Source: a virus
IMG/VR virus record: IMGVR_UViG_3300030106_002384
Location: 33,388-54,523 of that record
DNA length: 21,136 bases
Direction: 5' to 3' (one strand)
The first letter of the stretch is position 1. Each line of letters opens with the position of its first letter. The notes under the pieces are model-generated. The model was given only the letters and a program-made list of their open reading frames with translations. It did no database searches and was not told the DNA's origin. Position numbers and translations under genes: made by a program. Of the stretch, positions 12,093-20,534 are shown in pieces.

Positions 12093-13078
12093 TATGCAAC
12101 TTCTTGTAAAGTTGTATCTATTTCACCTGTTTCTAAATTCATATTATCTAAAACAGGCACTGACGTAGATTCTCTTAATTTTGCAGCTTCAATCATATCC
12201 TGTGGCTCCACTCCTGAATTTTCACGTTGACCAAAAAGCATAGTTACATTTATACGCTTGTTATCAAAACCGGGAAGAAAATTTACATCTGCTGTTTTAT
12301 GAAACAGATTAGAATTAAATAGAACGCATCTGTTATACTTATATGGAATGTAAACTGCTTTTGATTGTTGTTTATCTAAATACTCAAGCACTTCATCTTT
12401 GTTGTCGCCATTGTATCTATTAAAGTCCCAATCTACAGGAGCACCTGCATCCCAAATCCACATGCCCCCTGTCTTACCTATATCCTTTTCTTTATCATAA
12501 TCTCTATTTGCTTCTGTAGGTGTAATCCAAAAGTTTACATTGACAGCGGCAAAATCAGCATGTACATCTATACCCGGACATTTTGATTCATACTTAAATG
12601 CCCACATTTGAGCTAAGTTACGTTTATTTGTAGTATTAAATATTTTAGGTAAGTTCTGTACCATCTCCAATGCAAGTGTCTCTAAAACTTGAGGATTAAA
12701 ACCATTCTGTCTAAACGCACCTAGATAACCTCTACCATAAATTGTATTCCAAAAAGGAAACTCAAGACAATAATCTTTAAGTTTCTGTAATGCCTCTAAG
12801 TTCATAAAGTCATCTATAACTACAATATTAGGTTTTGTCTTATAATAATTTTCTTCTACTATATTAAAAGGTAACTTTTTATTAATAGCACCTTCATTAT
12901 GATTGTGATGAGGAAGTACTAATCTACCTGAATTAAGTAACCAAAGAAGTTGACCTATATCATGTGCTTCTTTCATGTGAAGCATGTGTTCCTTAAAAGG
13001 CTGGTCGTTAGAATTTTCTAGTGGATTATATTCTTTCTTTGTTTCTTTTGCTTTTGCTCTACGCTGTTTTCTATTCAT
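12092..13078 (-). CDS. 2-oxoglutarate/Fe(II)-dependent oxygenase-like protein (328 aa)
   Basis: The double-stranded beta-helix dioxygenase pattern is visible: HAD at H173/D175 (GIDVHADFAAVN), then FWITPTEAN, a distal His H260 (LFNSNLFHKTAD) and a 2-oxoglutarate-binding Arg about 15 residues later (KRINVTMLF, R275). The iron triad and the Arg are all present, so it may be active. The N-terminal 80 residues are basic, then NIVVIDDFMNLEALQKL, the usual start of prolyl-hydroxylase-like domains in marine phages. Substrate is unknown: protein hydroxylation or nucleic-acid modification are both possible. It is coupled to the lysis genes by a TAATG overlap. Confidence 0.8.
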   Translation of the reverse strand: MNRKQRRAKAKETKKEYNPLENSNDQPFKEHMLHMKEAHDIGQLLWLLNSGRLVLPHHNHNEGAINKKLPFNIVEENYYKTKPNIVVIDDFMNLEALQKLKDYCLEFPFWNTIYGRGYLGAFRQNGFNPQVLETLALEMVQNLPKIFNTTNKRNLAQMWAFKYESKCPGIDVHADFAAVNVNFWITPTEANRDYDKEKDIGKTGGMWIWDAGAPVDWDFNRYNGDNKDEVLEYLDKQQSKAVYIPYKYNRCVLFNSNLFHKTADVNFLPGFDNKRINVTMLFGQRENSGVEPQDMIEAAKLRESTSVPVLDNMNLETGEIDTTLQEVA

Positions 13079-16838: not shown

Positions 16839-16961
16839 TCATTAAATTAATTAAAAAAACTCTAGCAAAGTATTAACAATTCTTGTCAGCACTGAAAGTG
16901 GTTAACAACTCATTTACCTGATCTGTGTATAACCGTGTATATACGTACGTAGTGACCCCCC

Positions 16962-16979
16962 ATGCCCCCTACGGGGCAT
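16962..16979 (+). other. Hairpin 1 of the leader array
   Basis: ATGCCCC (16962–16968) pairs with GGGGCAT (16973–16979) around a CTAC loop, a GC-rich 7-bp stem. No T-run follows in either direction. It opens a run of adjacent hairpins. Confidence 0.7.
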
Positions 16980-16991
16980 ACCCTCTCAAAG

Positions 16992-17029
16992 TTAGCCGAA
17001 GGCTAAAATGTTAGCATCGAAGATGCTAA
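16992..17029 (+). other. Hairpins 2 and 3 of the leader array (twin GAA-loop hairpins)
   Basis: TTAGCC-GAA-GGCTAA (16992–17006) and TTAGCATC-GAA-GATGCTAA (17011–17029) are perfect stems of 6 and 8 bp. Both begin TTAGC, end GCTAA and share the loop GAA. They are four bases apart and look like related elements. Confidence 0.75.
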
Positions 17030-17033
17030 ATAT

Positions 17034-17056
17034 TTGAAAATGTGTAACATTTTCAA
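17034..17056 (+). other. Hairpin 4 of the leader array
   Basis: TTGAAAATGT (17034–17043) pairs perfectly over 10 bp with ACATTTTCAA (17047–17056) around the three-base loop GTA. It begins four bases after hairpin 3. Confidence 0.75.
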
Positions 17057-17060
17057 GGTT

Positions 17061-17102
17061 GTTATTTATTACCCTTTCACTTGTGAAAGGGAAATAAATA
17101 AC
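17061..17102 (+). other. Hairpin 5 of the leader array (long)
   Basis: GTTATTTATT (17061–17070) pairs with AATAAATAAC (17093–17102). After one A·A mismatch, CCCTTTCAC (17072–17080) pairs with GTGAAAGGG (17083–17091). This gives 19 base pairs in 42 bases, the longest stem in the window outside the R repeats. It starts four bases after hairpin 4. Confidence 0.8.
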
Positions 17103-17120
17103 AATACAGCATTTTGCATC

Positions 17121-17142
17121 GCTGATCCACTATCAGCAGTGG
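17121..17142 (+). other. Interleaved alternative-pairing element (switch-like)
   Basis: GCTGAT (17121–17126) can pair with ATCAGC (17132–17137), while CCACT (17127–17131) can pair with AGTGG (17138–17142). The two stems interleave with no linker bases, so both cannot form fully at once. That is the geometry of a two-state switch or compressed pseudoknot. The remaining bases to 17218 include a run of seven C residues but no gene. Confidence 0.45.
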
Positions 17143-17218
17143 AGATAGATCATAGACTTTGTCAAGATCTGGCATCCGGCAAAATTGTTGGAGGCAGAGG
17201 ACCCCCCCAAACCAAAAC

Positions 17219-17271
17219 CTATAATATCTTTTTGCAAGTGAGTTCTTACGAACTGCAAAAAGAGATTATAG
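17219..17271 (+). repeat. Hairpin cassette R1 (subtype A, variant stem)
   Basis: Outer arms CTATAAT/ATTATAG and a stem CTTTTTGC/GCAAAAAG flank a five-base bulge AAGTG and the shared tip AGTTC-TTAC-GAACT. Compared with R2, the stem C to T change is matched by G to A on the other arm. Its end is 35 bases before ATG 17307. The spacer has ACCAACCAACCAAA before the ribosome binding site. Confidence 0.85.
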
Positions 17272-17306
17272 AGAATATAAACCAACCAACCAAATGGAGA
17301 ACAACC

Positions 17307-17471
17307 ATGGAGAATATATATCCTTTCTCAGTTAAAGAAGTACCTTACACTGAAGATAAAAATGCTTTTGTGATAATGTTCTATGATCAAGAAGTAGATC
17401 CTATGTCTGGAGTGTTTGAAACCAGGGAGGATGCTTTGGATCAAATTTCCATTCTGGAAATGGCGATCTAA
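17307..17471 (+). CDS. Small acidic early protein (54 aa)
   Basis: ATG 17307 follows GGAGAACAACC, the binding-site pattern of this gene cluster. The frame is open upstream to 17034, but that extension reads through the hairpin array and R1 and is rejected. The 54-aa acidic product begins MENIYPFSVKEVPYTEDKNA and has a FVIMFYDQEVDP strand and an FETREDALDQISILEMAI helix. This resembles a small alpha/beta fold of unknown function. It is the first gene of the rightward cluster. Confidence 0.75.
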   Translation: MENIYPFSVKEVPYTEDKNAFVIMFYDQEVDPMSGVFETREDALDQISILEMAI

Positions 17472-17480
17472 ATCACAAAC

Positions 17481-17531
17481 CTATATATACTCTTTGCAGT
17501 GAGTTCTTACGAACTGCAAAGAGATATATAG
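17481..17531 (+). repeat. Hairpin cassette R2 (subtype A)
   Basis: Arms CTATATAT/ATATATAG (with one bulged A) and CTCTTTGC/GCAAAGAG enclose the bulge AGTG and the tip AGTTC-TTAC-GAACT. The 51 bases are identical to R4. It ends 37 bases before ATG 17569. Confidence 0.9.
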
Positions 17532-17568
17532 ATAAAATAAAAATCAACCAACTAACTGGAGAATAACT

Positions 17569-17700
17569 ATGAATATATCTCAAGAAAAGAAACTACTAAA
17601 GCTGTTCCATGTCTCTAAAATGATTAGAGAGAAAGAGGAGAGAGAAGCTCAAAAGATGTACGAATGGTGTGTCGAGAATGACTGTTTGGGAGATGATTAA
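17569..17700 (+). CDS. Small helical early protein (43 aa)
   Basis: ATG 17569 follows CTGGAGAATAACT. The 43-aa product, MNISQEKKLLKLFHVSKMIR followed by a Glu/Arg-rich helix and an end of CVENDCLGDD, is highly charged and probably a single helix pair. It lies alone between R2 and R3, so it forms its own module. No family was recognised. A DNA-mimic or host-takeover peptide is possible given size and position, but this is inference only. Confidence 0.65.
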   Translation: MNISQEKKLLKLFHVSKMIREKEEREAQKMYEWCVENDCLGDD

Positions 17701-17708
17701 ACACAAAC

Positions 17709-17757
17709 CTATATATCTCTTTGCAGTGAGTTCTTACGAACTGCAAAGAGTATATAG
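17709..17757 (+). repeat. Hairpin cassette R3 (subtype B)
   Basis: Arms CTATATA/TATATAG with a bulged T, and CTCTTTGC/GCAAAGAG, enclose the AGTG bulge and AGTTC-TTAC-GAACT tip. With flanks, 17699–17764 is identical over 66 bases to 18937–19002 (R5). It ends 14 bases before ATG 17772, with no CCAA-rich spacer. Confidence 0.9.
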
Positions 17758-17771
17758 AGAAAGGGCAACTG

Positions 17772-17867
17772 ATGGCTAACCTATTGATCGGCATGTATTT
17801 TTCCATAGCACTACCATTTACGTTCTGGATTTTTATTATTACTTTGAACCTTTTTACAGGAGTTTAA
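17772..17867 (+). CDS. Single-helix membrane micropeptide (31 aa)
   Basis: ATG 17772 opens a 31-codon frame: MANLLIGMYFSIALPF, then TFWIFIITLNLFTGV. It is almost wholly hydrophobic and would form one TM helix. AAAGGG lies upstream within the R3 flank. Its 3′ end contains the ACAGGAG binding site of the 120-aa gene that starts two bases after its stop, so translation of the two is linked. Small phage membrane peptides can depolarise membranes or inhibit host proteins; the role here is unknown. Confidence 0.6.
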   Translation: MANLLIGMYFSIALPFTFWIFIITLNLFTGV

Positions 17868-17869
17868 TT

Positions 17870-18232
17870 ATGCAGCCTAAATTTTGTTTAGTAGCAATCA
17901 CTGGCGATAAATCAGCAGATGGTATGAGTGACACAAATACCGTGTACTTGTTTGATGATAAACATCTTGATCATGTTCATGAATTCTTAAAAGCACAATT
18001 AGAGTATGAAGTGTTTATGGCAACATACAAAATACCATGTGAAACAGAAAGTGATGTAAAAAAGTATGATCAAGTTTGGGAAAATCGCTTTAATACTTTT
18101 GATAAACTAGAAGAAGTAGGTATTTTTAAGGATAAATGGGATTTTAGAACTACATGGAATTTTGCTTTGTATGATGAAATATCTTGCAACAAGGCATACA
18201 AACCTTGGAAACTGGTGATCACTTCCGAATAA
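17870..18232 (+). CDS. Early protein of unknown function (120 aa)
   Basis: The 120-aa acidic soluble protein starts MQPKFCLVAITGDKSADGMS and continues with TVYLFDDKHLDHVHEFLKAQ. The C-terminal part is rich in aromatic residues (KWDFRTTWNFALYDEI). It has an alpha/beta pattern and no recognised motif. Its ribosome binding site lies in the tail of the 31-aa membrane peptide gene. The next element, R4, begins eight bases after its stop. Confidence 0.7.
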   Translation: MQPKFCLVAITGDKSADGMSDTNTVYLFDDKHLDHVHEFLKAQLEYEVFMATYKIPCETESDVKKYDQVWENRFNTFDKLEEVGIFKDKWDFRTTWNFALYDEISCNKAYKPWKLVITSE

Positions 18233-18240
18233 ACCAAAAC

Positions 18241-18291
18241 CTATATATACTCTTTGCAGTGAGTTCTTACGAACTGCAAAGAGATATATAG
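18241..18291 (+). repeat. Hairpin cassette R4 (subtype A)
   Basis: The 51 bases are identical to R2 and end 37 bases before ATG 18329, the same spacing as R2 to its gene. The spacer ACCAACCAACCAAA is nearly identical to that of R1. Confidence 0.9.
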
Positions 18292-18328
18292 ATAAAACAT
18301 AAACCAACCAACCAAAAGGAGAACAAAC

Positions 18329-18937
18329 ATGGCTCATGCATCACAAGAACTTAAGAAAAAATTAACCCCTGAAATTAATAGAGTATTATCTAAGTATGGG
18401 ATGAAAGGCACTATATCTGTTAGAAATCGAATGACGTTAGTGGTGACTGTAAGATCTGGTTTTATGATGTTTGATCAAACATTTGTAAATACCTGTCACA
18501 TAGATAAATTCTATGAAGGTGTGCAAAAAGAATTTTTACTAGAGTTAAAACTTGCTATGGAAGGGCCAAACTTTTTTAACCACGATGACGCTTCGACAGA
18601 TTACTTTAATAGATCTCACTACATAGACATAAAAATAGGAACATGGGAGAAGCCGTATGTAATTATAAAACCAAAAGAAATAAAAGTTAAAAGTAAATGG
18701 ATACAATCAATCAACGCTAAAATGAAGGAGACTAAAATGGCTACTAATAAAAGAACTTGGCAACATTTTATCAATGGCGAATGGGTCAATATCCCCAATG
18801 ATAGAACTACTTTTAAGACGGTATCACAGAGTGATCCGATCAGAGTGGTACATCCTAATGGATCTTGGTTTGTTACTCATAACAAAGATAAAGCTAAGCA
18901 GTTTAATCTTGAACTGAGTGCCAGATCCGCAAAATAA
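18329..18937 (+). CDS. Two-part early protein, possible fused or nested gene (202 aa)
   Basis: The N-terminal ~110 residues (ELKKKLTPEINRVLSKYGMK, then GTISVRNRMTLVVTVRSG) resemble a small conserved phage domain of unknown function with 'KYGxKGxxSVRxxxTLVxxxxSG'. The C-terminal 66 residues begin MATNKRTWQHFINGEWVNIP and form a separate-looking unit with IRVVHPNGSWFVTHNKDKAK. The codons just before that Met read AAGGAGACTAAAATG, the same signal used by real starts in this cluster, so 18737–18937 may also be made as a separate 66-aa protein. It is flanked by R4 and R5. Confidence 0.75.
   Translation: MAHASQELKKKLTPEINRVLSKYGMKGTISVRNRMTLVVTVRSGFMMFDQTFVNTCHIDKFYEGVQKEFLLELKLAMEGPNFFNHDDASTDYFNRSHYIDIKIGTWEKPYVIIKPKEIKVKSKWIQSINAKMKETKMATNKRTWQHFINGEWVNIPNDRTTFKTVSQSDPIRVVHPNGSWFVTHNKDKAKQFNLELSARSAK
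18737..18937 (+). CDS. Possible nested in-frame product (66 aa)
   Basis: ATG 18737 is in frame with the 202-aa gene and is preceded by AAGGAGACTAAA, matching the signals before 19705, 20096, 20349 and 21096. It would yield the C-terminal 66 residues alone (starting MATNKRTWQHFING). Either it is an internal start, or two once-separate genes fused in frame. It could also be a coincidence of codon use. Confidence 0.4.
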   Translation: MATNKRTWQHFINGEWVNIPNDRTTFKTVSQSDPIRVVHPNGSWFVTHNKDKAKQFNLELSARSAK

Positions 18938-18946
18938 AACACAAAC

Positions 18947-18995
18947 CTATATATCTCTTTGCAGTGAGTTCTTACGAACTGCAAAGAGTATATAG
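18947..18995 (+). repeat. Hairpin cassette R5 (subtype B)
   Basis: It is identical in its 49-base core to R3, and in 66 bases including flanks. It ends 15 bases before ATG 19011, the same short spacing as R3 to its gene. Confidence 0.9.
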
Positions 18996-19010
18996 AGAAA
19001 GGAAAATTCA

Positions 19011-19703
19011 ATGGTTCATACTTCCACGATGTCAGGTAAACTTGAGTTGTTCAAGTCTATCAGTACCAATACAGTAGTTAACTACTTCTGTTTTGATAGG
19101 TACAATAAAGCAAAGGTTAAGAATAAAAAGGCAGGTAAAGTAGTCGATATCTGTGGTATATGTTACAGTCAAATTATGCTTAGTTCATATAGAAAGAATG
19201 TGCAACCGGCATTGGATCGGAACGAAGAACTAGCAGAAAGGTTACTAGACAAAGAAGAACTACCTACTTACTTGGATGCTTTCCTTAGAATAGATGCTCA
19301 TGGTGAGCTACTTACTCACAAGGTTGATCCAAGCACTGGTAAAGTTATCAAGACTTTTCCTAAGTATAATCACATAGAAAATCTATGTAGAATTGCTGAA
19401 CATAATCCACATTGTAACTTTGCCTTGTGGACTAAACGAACAGAGATAGTTAAACCTTTCTTTAACAAACGTACTAAACCTGCCAACTTGATCTTGATAT
19501 ATTCTAATCCAAAGGTTAGTACAATCTTGACTTCACCACCTACTCACTTTGATAGAACATTTAATAATGTCTTAGAGGATGAGTTTGTAGATCAGCAAAA
19601 TTGTACTGGTCAAAAATGTAAAGATTGCTTGCTATGTTATACCAAAGATAATGGTGTGACTACCATAGTGGAGAAGGCAAAGTTTTATGTAAAGGAGAAT
19701 TAA
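19011..19703 (+). CDS. GP88-like cysteine-rich phage protein (230 aa)
   Basis: Motifs in order resemble the phage 'gene product 88' family: an N-terminal CxxC (C48, C51; VVDICGICYSQIM), then FLRIDAHGEL (R93, D95, H97), then HNPHCNFALWTKR, and a C-terminal C198-x4-C203-x2-C206-x2-C209 cluster (NCTGQKCKDCLLCY). The last cluster could hold zinc or an iron–sulphur centre. The family's biochemical role is not known to me. AAAGGA precedes ATG 19011. The stop overlaps the signal for the MORN-repeat gene, which starts two bases later, so they are co-translated after R5. Confidence 0.65.
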   Translation: MVHTSTMSGKLELFKSISTNTVVNYFCFDRYNKAKVKNKKAGKVVDICGICYSQIMLSSYRKNVQPALDRNEELAERLLDKEELPTYLDAFLRIDAHGELLTHKVDPSTGKVIKTFPKYNHIENLCRIAEHNPHCNFALWTKRTEIVKPFFNKRTKPANLILIYSNPKVSTILTSPPTHFDRTFNNVLEDEFVDQQNCTGQKCKDCLLCYTKDNGVTTIVEKAKFYVKEN

Positions 19704-19704
19704 A

Positions 19705-20094
19705 ATGACTGAGGAATTTGAATTTTACCACGACAACGGTCAGCTATCTGAAAAGGGTAACTACAAGAACGGTAAACAAGAAGGAAGATGGTTCTATTAC
19801 TACGACAACGGTCAGTTAAGTGCAAAGGGTGACTACAGGAACGGTAAGAAAGAAGAAACGTGGGTCCATTACTACTCAAACGGTCAGTTATGGGACAAGG
19901 GTAACTTCAAAAACGGTAAGTATGAAGGAACGTGGGTCACTTACTATAGAGACGGTCAGTTAATGATGAAGGGTAACTTCACAAATGGTTATCGAGAGGG
20001 AATGTGGGTCGAATACCACTGGGATGGTTCAAAGGATACCCGTTGGTCGGGTGTTTACAGTAAATATAAGAAAGTTTATGTAGAGGAGAACTAA
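19705..20094 (+). CDS. MORN_2/YwqK-like repeat protein (129 aa)
   Basis: The product is almost entirely four 24-residue repeats from residue 3, each close to F-Y-x-D/N-G-Q-L-x-x-K-G-N/D-Y/F-x-N-G-K-x-E-G-x-W, plus a diverged fifth. This is the MORN variant 2 pattern of YwqK-type proteins, a family with members annotated as antitoxins and others of unknown role. The repeats are also visible in DNA with a 72-bp period. AAGGAGAATTAAAATG gives a strong start. It is coupled to the GP88-like gene before it and the 54-aa gene after it. Protein binding is the likely role, inferred from the repeats. Confidence 0.8.
   Translation: MTEEFEFYHDNGQLSEKGNYKNGKQEGRWFYYYDNGQLSAKGDYRNGKKEETWVHYYSNGQLWDKGNFKNGKYEGTWVTYYRDGQLMMKGNFTNGYREGMWVEYHWDGSKDTRWSGVYSKYKKVYVEEN
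19711..19998 (+). repeat. Four 72-bp tandem repeats in the MORN-like gene
   Basis: The period is exactly 72 bp: the AACGGTCAG or GACGGTCAG core recurs at about 19735, 19807, 19879 and 19951. The copies are diverged but clearly related, and each encodes one 24-residue MORN_2-type unit. Confidence 0.8.
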
Positions 20095-20095
20095 A

Positions 20096-20260
20096 ATGTT
20101 TATAGAAGTAACCAAAGATAGAGTGTATGGGAATGTTTTACACTACCCTGTTTGTCAAAAGGCAAAGTTATTTGCGAGGATTGCAGGATCAAAAACTTTA
20201 ACAGAGCATACGATGAATTTGATTAAGGAGATGGGATACGAAATACGACTAGTTATTTGA
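20096..20260 (+). CDS. Small early protein (54 aa)
   Basis: ATG 20096 follows GAGGAGAACTAAA. The 54-aa product starts MFIEVTKDRVYGNVLHYPVC, then QKAKLFARIAGSKTLTEHTM, and ends YEIRLVI, a compact beta–alpha–beta-like chain. Members with 'V-x-P-x-C-xxA-xxFAxIAG-xKTLT' are found in various phages, to my recollection, without a known function. It is the last gene before R6, in the module begun by the GP88-like gene. Confidence 0.7.
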   Translation: MFIEVTKDRVYGNVLHYPVCQKAKLFARIAGSKTLTEHTMNLIKEMGYEIRLVI

Positions 20261-20263
20261 ACC

Positions 20264-20313
20264 CTATATATACCTGTGTAGTAAGTTCTTACGAACTACA
20301 CAGGGATATATAG
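20264..20313 (+). repeat. Hairpin cassette R6 (subtype A, fully exchanged stem)
   Basis: Arms CTATATAT/ATATATAG are kept, but the middle stem is CCTGTGT/ACACAGG instead of CTCTTTGC/GCAAAGAG. The bulge is AGTA and the tip AGTTC-TTAC-GAACT is unchanged. Exchange of both stem arms while pairing is retained is strong evidence that the structure is selected. It ends 35 bases before ATG 20349. Confidence 0.88.
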
Positions 20314-20348: not shown

Positions 20349-20534
20349 ATGACATTGGAAGAGGCACGAAAAATAGTAGGCAATACACCTACGTATGCAC
20401 TTAGAAACATGGTAAAGGCACTTAAGCTACATCAATGGTTAAATACTGAAGACGATTGGAAGCGATTGAAAGCCGCCCAATTAATATTAAGGAAGAAGGA
20501 ACATTCCGCACCATTAATATTGAGGAGCAAGTGA
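20349..20534 (+). CDS. Small conserved-type early protein (61 aa)
   Basis: ATG 20349 follows AAGGAGAACTAAA. The 61-aa basic helical protein contains NTPTYALRNMVKALKLHQWL followed by NTEDDWKRLKAAQLILR. This pattern (ALRNMVKAL–xxWLNTxEDxxRLxAAxxxLR) I associate with small uncharacterised proteins in many phages. It ends one base before the next start (TGAcATG), so translation is coupled. Confidence 0.72.
   Translation: MTLEEARKIVGNTPTYALRNMVKALKLHQWLNTEDDWKRLKAAQLILRKKEHSAPLILRSK

Follow-up and report, generated by a model that had tools for sequence, protein, structure and literature searches.

In the early block of phage T7, hairpins stand in the intercistronic gaps at the RNase III sites R0.3 to R1.3. 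To our knowledge, these sites have neither a conserved tip nor a leader made of a hairpin array. A long stem has been described for the T7 R1.1 site, and the substrate of the yeast enzyme Rnt1p has been described as a 13-bp stem capped by an AGNN tetraloop (PMC8708148). In cluster K mycobacteriophages, inverted repeats of the SAS/ESAS system lie upstream of many start codons, where a control of expression has been proposed, and the ESAS are 17-nt imperfect repeats near the SAS GGGATAGGAGCCC (PMC12699233). The promoter hairpins of phage N4 require a C(GNA)G loop (PMC4496689). Moreover, a survey of structured RNAs has reported the manA and wcaG motifs of marine phages (PMC2864571). In this study, a window of 21,136 nucleotides (positions 33388-54523 of a viral record of 54523 bases) was analysed, which contained an array of small hairpins and, downstream of it, a second kind of hairpin with a fixed tip, here called the GA-tip hairpin. 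Sequence comparison indicated that the GA-tip hairpin precedes early genes in unrelated marine phages and that its stem varies freely in sequence, with the pairing and the small tip kept.

The early leader region of the window

Judged by its terminase (73% to Roseobacter phage CRP-1 and to HMO-2011), its capsid and portal, and its CRP-1-like gene plan, the phage belongs to the HMO-2011 group; a DNA-similarity search of named phages gave no match. The first 60 bases of the record (G000:C1:1) reappear at position 54149, with an inexact overlap of 374 bases, and these recurring ends suggest a complete genome that is circularly permuted or terminally redundant. Three small paralogous proteins with GNYKNGKxEGTW-type repeats were also noticed, one at 19705-20094 of the window and two at 551-916 and 1104-1475 of the record. 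Late genes run leftward from 16713 and early genes run rightward from 17307. The array sits between them in a gene-free region, which extends from a MazG-like gene (minus strand, up to 16713) to the first early gene (17307-17471, plus strand, 54 aa, ATG at 17307 with the SD sequence GGAG). On the minus strand of this region, a perfect sigma-70 consensus promoter (16838-16810; TTGACA, 17 nt, TATAAT, 12/12) faces the MazG and late side.

The array had been reported, in a sequence-only reading of this DNA, as five hairpins with an ambivalent sixth element, and it proved to be real, with all five stems and the loops GAA, GAA and GTA present. Five hairpins that are perfect or nearly perfect in Watson-Crick pairing, together with the sixth element, occupy 16962-17142 on the plus strand. 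As delimited by sequence and folding, H1 (16962-16979) follows a C-tract and has 7 bp and a CTAC loop; H2 (16992-17006, 6 bp) and H3 (17011-17029, 8 bp) both carry a C(GAA)G triloop; H4 (17034-17056) has 10 bp and a GTA loop; and H5 (17059-17104) has 8 bp plus about 12 bp around one A·A mismatch, with a CTTG loop. Element 6 (17107-17142) can form the mutually exclusive pairings GCTGAT/ATCAGC, CCACT/AGTGG and CAGC/GCTG. The regular spacing of four bases claimed for hairpins 2 to 5 holds between H2 and H3 and between H3 and H4, but H4 and H5 are only 2 nt apart when the whole H5 stem is counted. The absence of terminator-like U-runs was confirmed, since the U-tract that follows the stem of an intrinsic terminator was not found on the plus strand within 16962-17300.

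The array exceeds chance. Its folding z score was -7.6 as RNA and -9.9 as DNA, and none of 200 shuffled sequences folded as well. A 250-nt stretch here contains 6 strict hairpins, where the hairpin density of the genome would predict 0.2 (Poisson 8e-8 for a stretch of that size), and this was the only 250-nt stretch with at least 5 strict hairpins in the 54.5-kb genome, where their total was at the level of chance (44 found, 42 expected in shuffles). Exact copies of an array hairpin were not found in viral contigs. A second tip type, TCACTTGTGA, taken from H5, occurred in three places only.

The sequence-only reading, which saw the array, had missed a repeated 50-nt hairpin from 17219 onward. 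Six such hairpins of about 20 bp, all on the plus strand, precede early cistrons within 17219-20313. Copy 1 (17219-17271), with an extra A near the tip, stands before the gene with ATG at 17307; copy 2 (17481-17531) lies between the stop at 17471 and the ATG at 17569; copy 3 occupies 17709-17759; copies 4 (18241-18291) and 5 (18947-18997) precede the genes 18329-18937 and 19011-19703; and copy 6 (20264-20313), an AA variant, precedes the gene 20349-20534. Each consists of a stem of free sequence that leads into a tandem G·A and then a small loop closed by a 2-bp helix whose pairs covary. The minimum free energy structures from RNAfold contained the 2x2 GA/GA tip, or nearly so, in all six copies, with one bulged A in copy 1. 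The stem of copy 6 differs in sequence from those of copies 2-5 and its pairing is preserved. Copies 2-5 begin 8-9 nt past a stop codon, and the early genes of the window that start immediately after the preceding stop have no GA-tip hairpin. An earlier model of the tip, with a 4-nt bulge and a TTC/GAA stem, was rejected because the variants break it, whereas the tandem-G·A model keeps every inner pair.

GA-tip hairpins and arrays in other phages

Viral contigs were scanned with the 16-nt core GTGAGTTCTTACGAAC and with its GTAA variant, and 92 distinct GA-tip copies were gathered from several phage lineages. The flanks of most core matches were complementary, yet wholly different in sequence between phages. 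Counted over the first eight positions, pairing was bimodal among 125 distinct core sites, with 6-8 positions paired in 109 of them and 1-5 in 16. In contigs of bacterial and archaeal genomes, only 2 of the 18 exact core matches had paired arms, and these two (L228 and L232) are possibly phage DNA. In 38 diverse sites chosen from the scan, all 13 outer pairs changed on both sides, and the covariation score was 0.80, against 0.17 in shuffles (0 of 500 as high) and at most 0.23 with slid partners. Since these sites were found by the core and screened for paired arms, the selection itself accounts for the invariance of the tip and for part of the pairing percentage in this set; it accounts neither for the double changes nor for the bimodality. 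In a set of 22 sites that included variants, the score was 1.03 versus 0.21. Furthermore, the inner two pairs were kept in every sequence, variants included, and they covary (GU/AC, CU/AG, AC/GU).

A general detector in which the core was not fixed (outer stem, 5' GA or AA, two pairs, a loop of 3-8 nt, 3' GA) gave 47 matches, compared with 0 in shuffled genomes, and revealed other tips of the same layout, namely GACTTCTTAGGA, GACTATAAGGA, GAGTATCTTACGA, GAACGTAGTGA and GAACTAAAGTGA. The tip hairpin is an exceptionally strongly covarying structured element of several marine phage lineages, and variants of it exist in cultured phages, with GATACTTTAGTGA twice in HMO-2011 and GAATATTTGTGA in CRP-345.

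A start codon with an SD sequence lies downstream on the same strand at 77 of 109 sites, compared with 6 on the opposite strand. The hairpin base stands at a median of 11 nt past the upstream stop (53 sites) and 24 nt ahead of the start (73 sites), and with this short spacing a promoter would hardly fit except within the hairpin or the upstream gene. The arms are at least 17 nt long, with a mode of 20, and a genome carries up to six or seven copies, each at its own cistron. A -35 box was not universal upstream of the tip hairpins and was present in some groups only. In one group (L021, L023, L015, L056 and L057), repeated TGATGA motifs accompany a TTGACA box that lies 37-41 nt ahead of the core, and a possible -10 box falls partly within the hairpin's 5' arm. 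A palindrome, GTCCAAYRTTGGAC, is repeated near start codons upstream of early genes in CRP-1, CRP-345, L138, L157 and L172, and is possibly the operator of a dimeric protein.

Hairpin arrays recur beside tip hairpins. They lie directly upstream of one in several groups (for example, 12233-12497 before 12534 in L021, 1875-2317 before 2346 in L050, and L022/L046). Nine genomes with tip hairpins (G000-G008) were compared. In seven of them, hairpin-dense windows are confined to the early region that holds the tip hairpins: in G000, G002, G004 and G007 they immediately precede these, and in G001, G005 and G006 they fall among them or shortly after. Where the dense windows are not directly upstream, a tip hairpin lies within about 0.7 kb. 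In G003 and G008, no hairpin-dense window was found at this threshold. The sequence-only reading had looked to covariation in relatives. The relatives of this phage do not share its array, but covariation was borne out by the neighbouring leader hairpins and in part by the arrays of other phages: aligned relatives kept array pairs partly by double Watson-Crick changes (62 in F1, a noisy figure since the member L180 was entered in the wrong strand, and 84 in F2), but breaks were similar or more numerous. Hairpin-dense stretches also occur within an early coding sequence in L095, L123 and CRP-1, and in L095 (4923-5633, minus strand) and in gp01 of CRP-1 (L070, 1-627) the coding sequence carries perfect hairpins of 6-8 bp at about one per 30-60 nt.

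In the phage's own lineage, a different pattern was observed. Upstream of the array, at 16898-16949 on the plus strand, lies a promoter-like box, GTGGTTAAC..TTTACCTGATCTGTGTATAACC.TGTATATACGTACG, which is conserved in HMO-type relatives and is a probable early rightward promoter. Relatives (L331-L346) were found via MazG, at 95-60% identity, and the box is common to L331-L343 and L346, where the sequence covers it, and to CRP-1 and CRP-345, in the form GTGGTTAAC..CCTGATCTGTGTA. In HMO-type phages, the longer string GTGGTTAAC..TTTNCCTGATCTGTGTA..TGTATAC precedes a C- or G-tract, beyond which the sequence is hypervariable. The leaders past the box in the MazG relatives, CRP-1 and CRP-345 are unrelated and show no unusual folding, with z scores from -2.0 to +1.5 versus -6.8 here. 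Where the leader of a relative is covered far enough, no array was found at the corresponding position, nor was one found there in CRP-1 or CRP-345, and a GA-tip hairpin of the window's kind was not found in the leaders of the MazG relatives. In L331, the nearest relative (95% MazG identity), the sequence covers only 79 nt beyond the box, and these are unlike the window's sequence. Moreover, L335 and L336 are near-identical over a stretch of about 350 nt that runs from MazG through the box, and then continue into entirely different leaders, which marks a sharp exchange point. Since the nearest relatives have no array, the lineage does not need it; and since the relatives share the box and neither the array nor the tip hairpin, the array appears to travel with the tip-hairpin module and not with the lineage. 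Such a distribution makes an essential role as an origin less likely and favours one in early gene expression.

Possible roles of the leader

Among the readings proposed for this locus, that of a structured regulatory RNA, raised in the sequence-only reading as one alternative, fits best when taken as a leader. We tentatively suggest that the first early transcript begins with the array as its structured 5' leader, and that this leader belongs to an exchangeable module of early expression, by which early mRNA is shielded or processed; to this reading we would give somewhat less than an even chance. Host RNA polymerase would make the early transcript from the box near 16898-16949, and the array, standing between this box and the first of the six GA-tip hairpins, would form the 5' leader of that rightward transcript. 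The array could keep the untranslated leader folded and so protect it from single-strand nucleases and from Rho. The tip hairpins, as judged from their layout, length and fixed tip, would mark the intercistronic gaps, so that each non-coupled early cistron would be preceded by a tip hairpin of about 20 bp and the array and tip hairpins together would make up the exchangeable module. A factor that measures both tip and length might then process or insulate each cistron, and the simplest candidate would be a host RNase III-type enzyme or another RNA-binding protein. A host polymerase is expected because no phage RNA polymerase was found. The whole-genome search for an N4-type virion RNA polymerase, to which the sequence-only reading had pointed, was negative: N4 vRNAP (phrog_2206) and PF00940 were absent from the 54.5-kb record and from 16 other tip-carrying phage records, many of which may be fragments, and the phage N4 control was detected at 3964 bits and E 9.6e-15, respectively.

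An alternative that we consider unlikely, but that has to be taken seriously, is that the array acts as DNA, with small hairpins extruded as cruciforms or from single strands. They would lie at a replication origin or in an early control region and be bound by a protein of replication or by one that binds single strands. The composition of the stems would suit such a role. In the arms next to the tip, 422 Watson-Crick pairs were counted with 2 GT and 6 AC, so that G·U was as rare as other mismatches; in whole stems, with gaps allowed, there were 77 G·U versus 1963 Watson-Crick pairs and 138 mismatches; and in the arrays, whose stems are otherwise Watson-Crick only, the GT count equalled AC in the comparison that had L180 on the wrong strand. 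This near-absence of G·U is unusual for selection on RNA alone, and raises the question of why stems resembling those of mRNA stay almost free of G·U. In addition, the closing pair was C-G in 75 cases versus G-C in 6, C(GNA)G loops occurred on either strand, and a GNA-type loop or its complement was present in 24 of 53 CG-closed array triloops versus 13 of 65 elsewhere in the genomes. The DNA fold z was stronger than the RNA one on both strands, although this difference is not independent of the scarcity of G·U and partly restates it. The hairpin-dense stretches within coding sequence in CRP-1 and L095 point the same way. The origin alternative and the GC-skew analysis put forward in the sequence-only reading gave a divided answer: the cumulative minimum falls at record position 50737, a distance of 0.2 kb from the array. 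This is also where the genes change strand, and close relatives that share the box and the arrangement of genes lack an array. Furthermore, initiator repeats were not found, and the GA-tip hairpins are sense-oriented ahead of start codons. The sense strand, the place in the 5' UTR and the fold of the tip support the RNA side, which is provisionally ranked first; scarce G·U and the DNA-type loops would also fit a role at the DNA level.

A rather improbable possibility is that an RNA-binding regulator encoded by the phage uses the leader and tip hairpins as its operators and controls early translation or antitermination, in the manner of lambda N/boxB or HK022 put. A conserved tip on free stems does resemble a site of protein recognition, and the hairpins lie closely upstream of SD sequences. 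However, no protein was found that is common to the nine tip-carrying genomes compared and absent from CRP-1, a comparison limited by small proteins and incomplete contigs, and this result points weakly to a host factor. The presence of a copy at each of several cistrons, up to six or seven in a genome, is also unlike the nut and put sites, which stand at operon starts.

It is less probable again that the array is largely a mutational footprint, in which hairpin-templated DNA repair in an often single-stranded region would leave perfect inverted repeats with no function of their own. Perfect arms free of G·U, DNA-type loops, the occurrence in coding and non-coding positions alike and the poor conservation within the lineage would all be expected of such a process; against it, there is usually one such region per genome, repeatedly beside tip hairpins in different types of phage, and the array hairpins partly preserve their pairing through double changes in relatives. 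Finally, that the array consists of N4-type hairpin promoters read by a virion RNA polymerase is extremely improbable, since the likeness remarked on earlier extends to the 6-10 bp stems, the 3-nt loops and the C(GAA)G loops of H2 and H3 (PMC4496689), but these loops are on the plus strand, which is non-template for the rightward genes, and the negative searches, single-subunit polymerases included, with their positive control rule out promoters of the known N4- and T7-like polymerase families.

Comparison with described systems

In the window, a scan against Rfam gave no match at gathering score, the sub-threshold matches being to eukaryotic or unrelated families only, and searches for tRNA and tmRNA returned nothing. 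A full-text search of open-access papers found no description of such a tip hairpin, which is apparently undescribed. A wider claim can be considered, doubtful as we hold it to be: the array and GA-tip hairpins may form a transferable early-expression cassette of unrelated marine phages, in which a host-encoded factor would recognise the tandem G·A at the tip of a two-turn stem, whatever the sequence of that stem, as a bacterial counterpart of tip-and-ruler processing that is undescribed in Rfam and in the literature searched. The tip hairpin offers a handle on early gene expression by phages that have no RNA polymerase of their own.

The small hairpins, 3-nt loops and C(GNA)G closure of the array are like those of the N4 vRNAP promoters (PMC4496689), but there is no vRNAP here and the arrays do not have one gene per hairpin. 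The manA and wcaG RNAs are likewise structured leaders in marine phages, and are other motifs. The SAS/ESAS system shares the feature of inverted repeats upstream of many starts in one phage genome; it differs in that the arms of the GA-tip hairpins are free in sequence and the tip is fixed, and the SAS GGGATAGGAGCCC was not seen upstream of the early genes of the window. The substrates of Rnt1p resemble the GA-tip hairpin in their stem of free sequence, fixed minimum length and conserved tip; however, Rnt1p is a eukaryotic enzyme, and the tip found here is instead a tandem G·A followed by 2 bp and a loop of 3-6 nt. The early RNase III sites of T7 (R0.3-R1.3) share with the GA-tip hairpins the long stems and the location in the intercistronic gaps of an early block, which in this phage would also be transcribed by host RNA polymerase. 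Unlike the T7 sites as they are known, the GA-tip hairpins have a fixed tip and are accompanied by a leader formed by a hairpin array.
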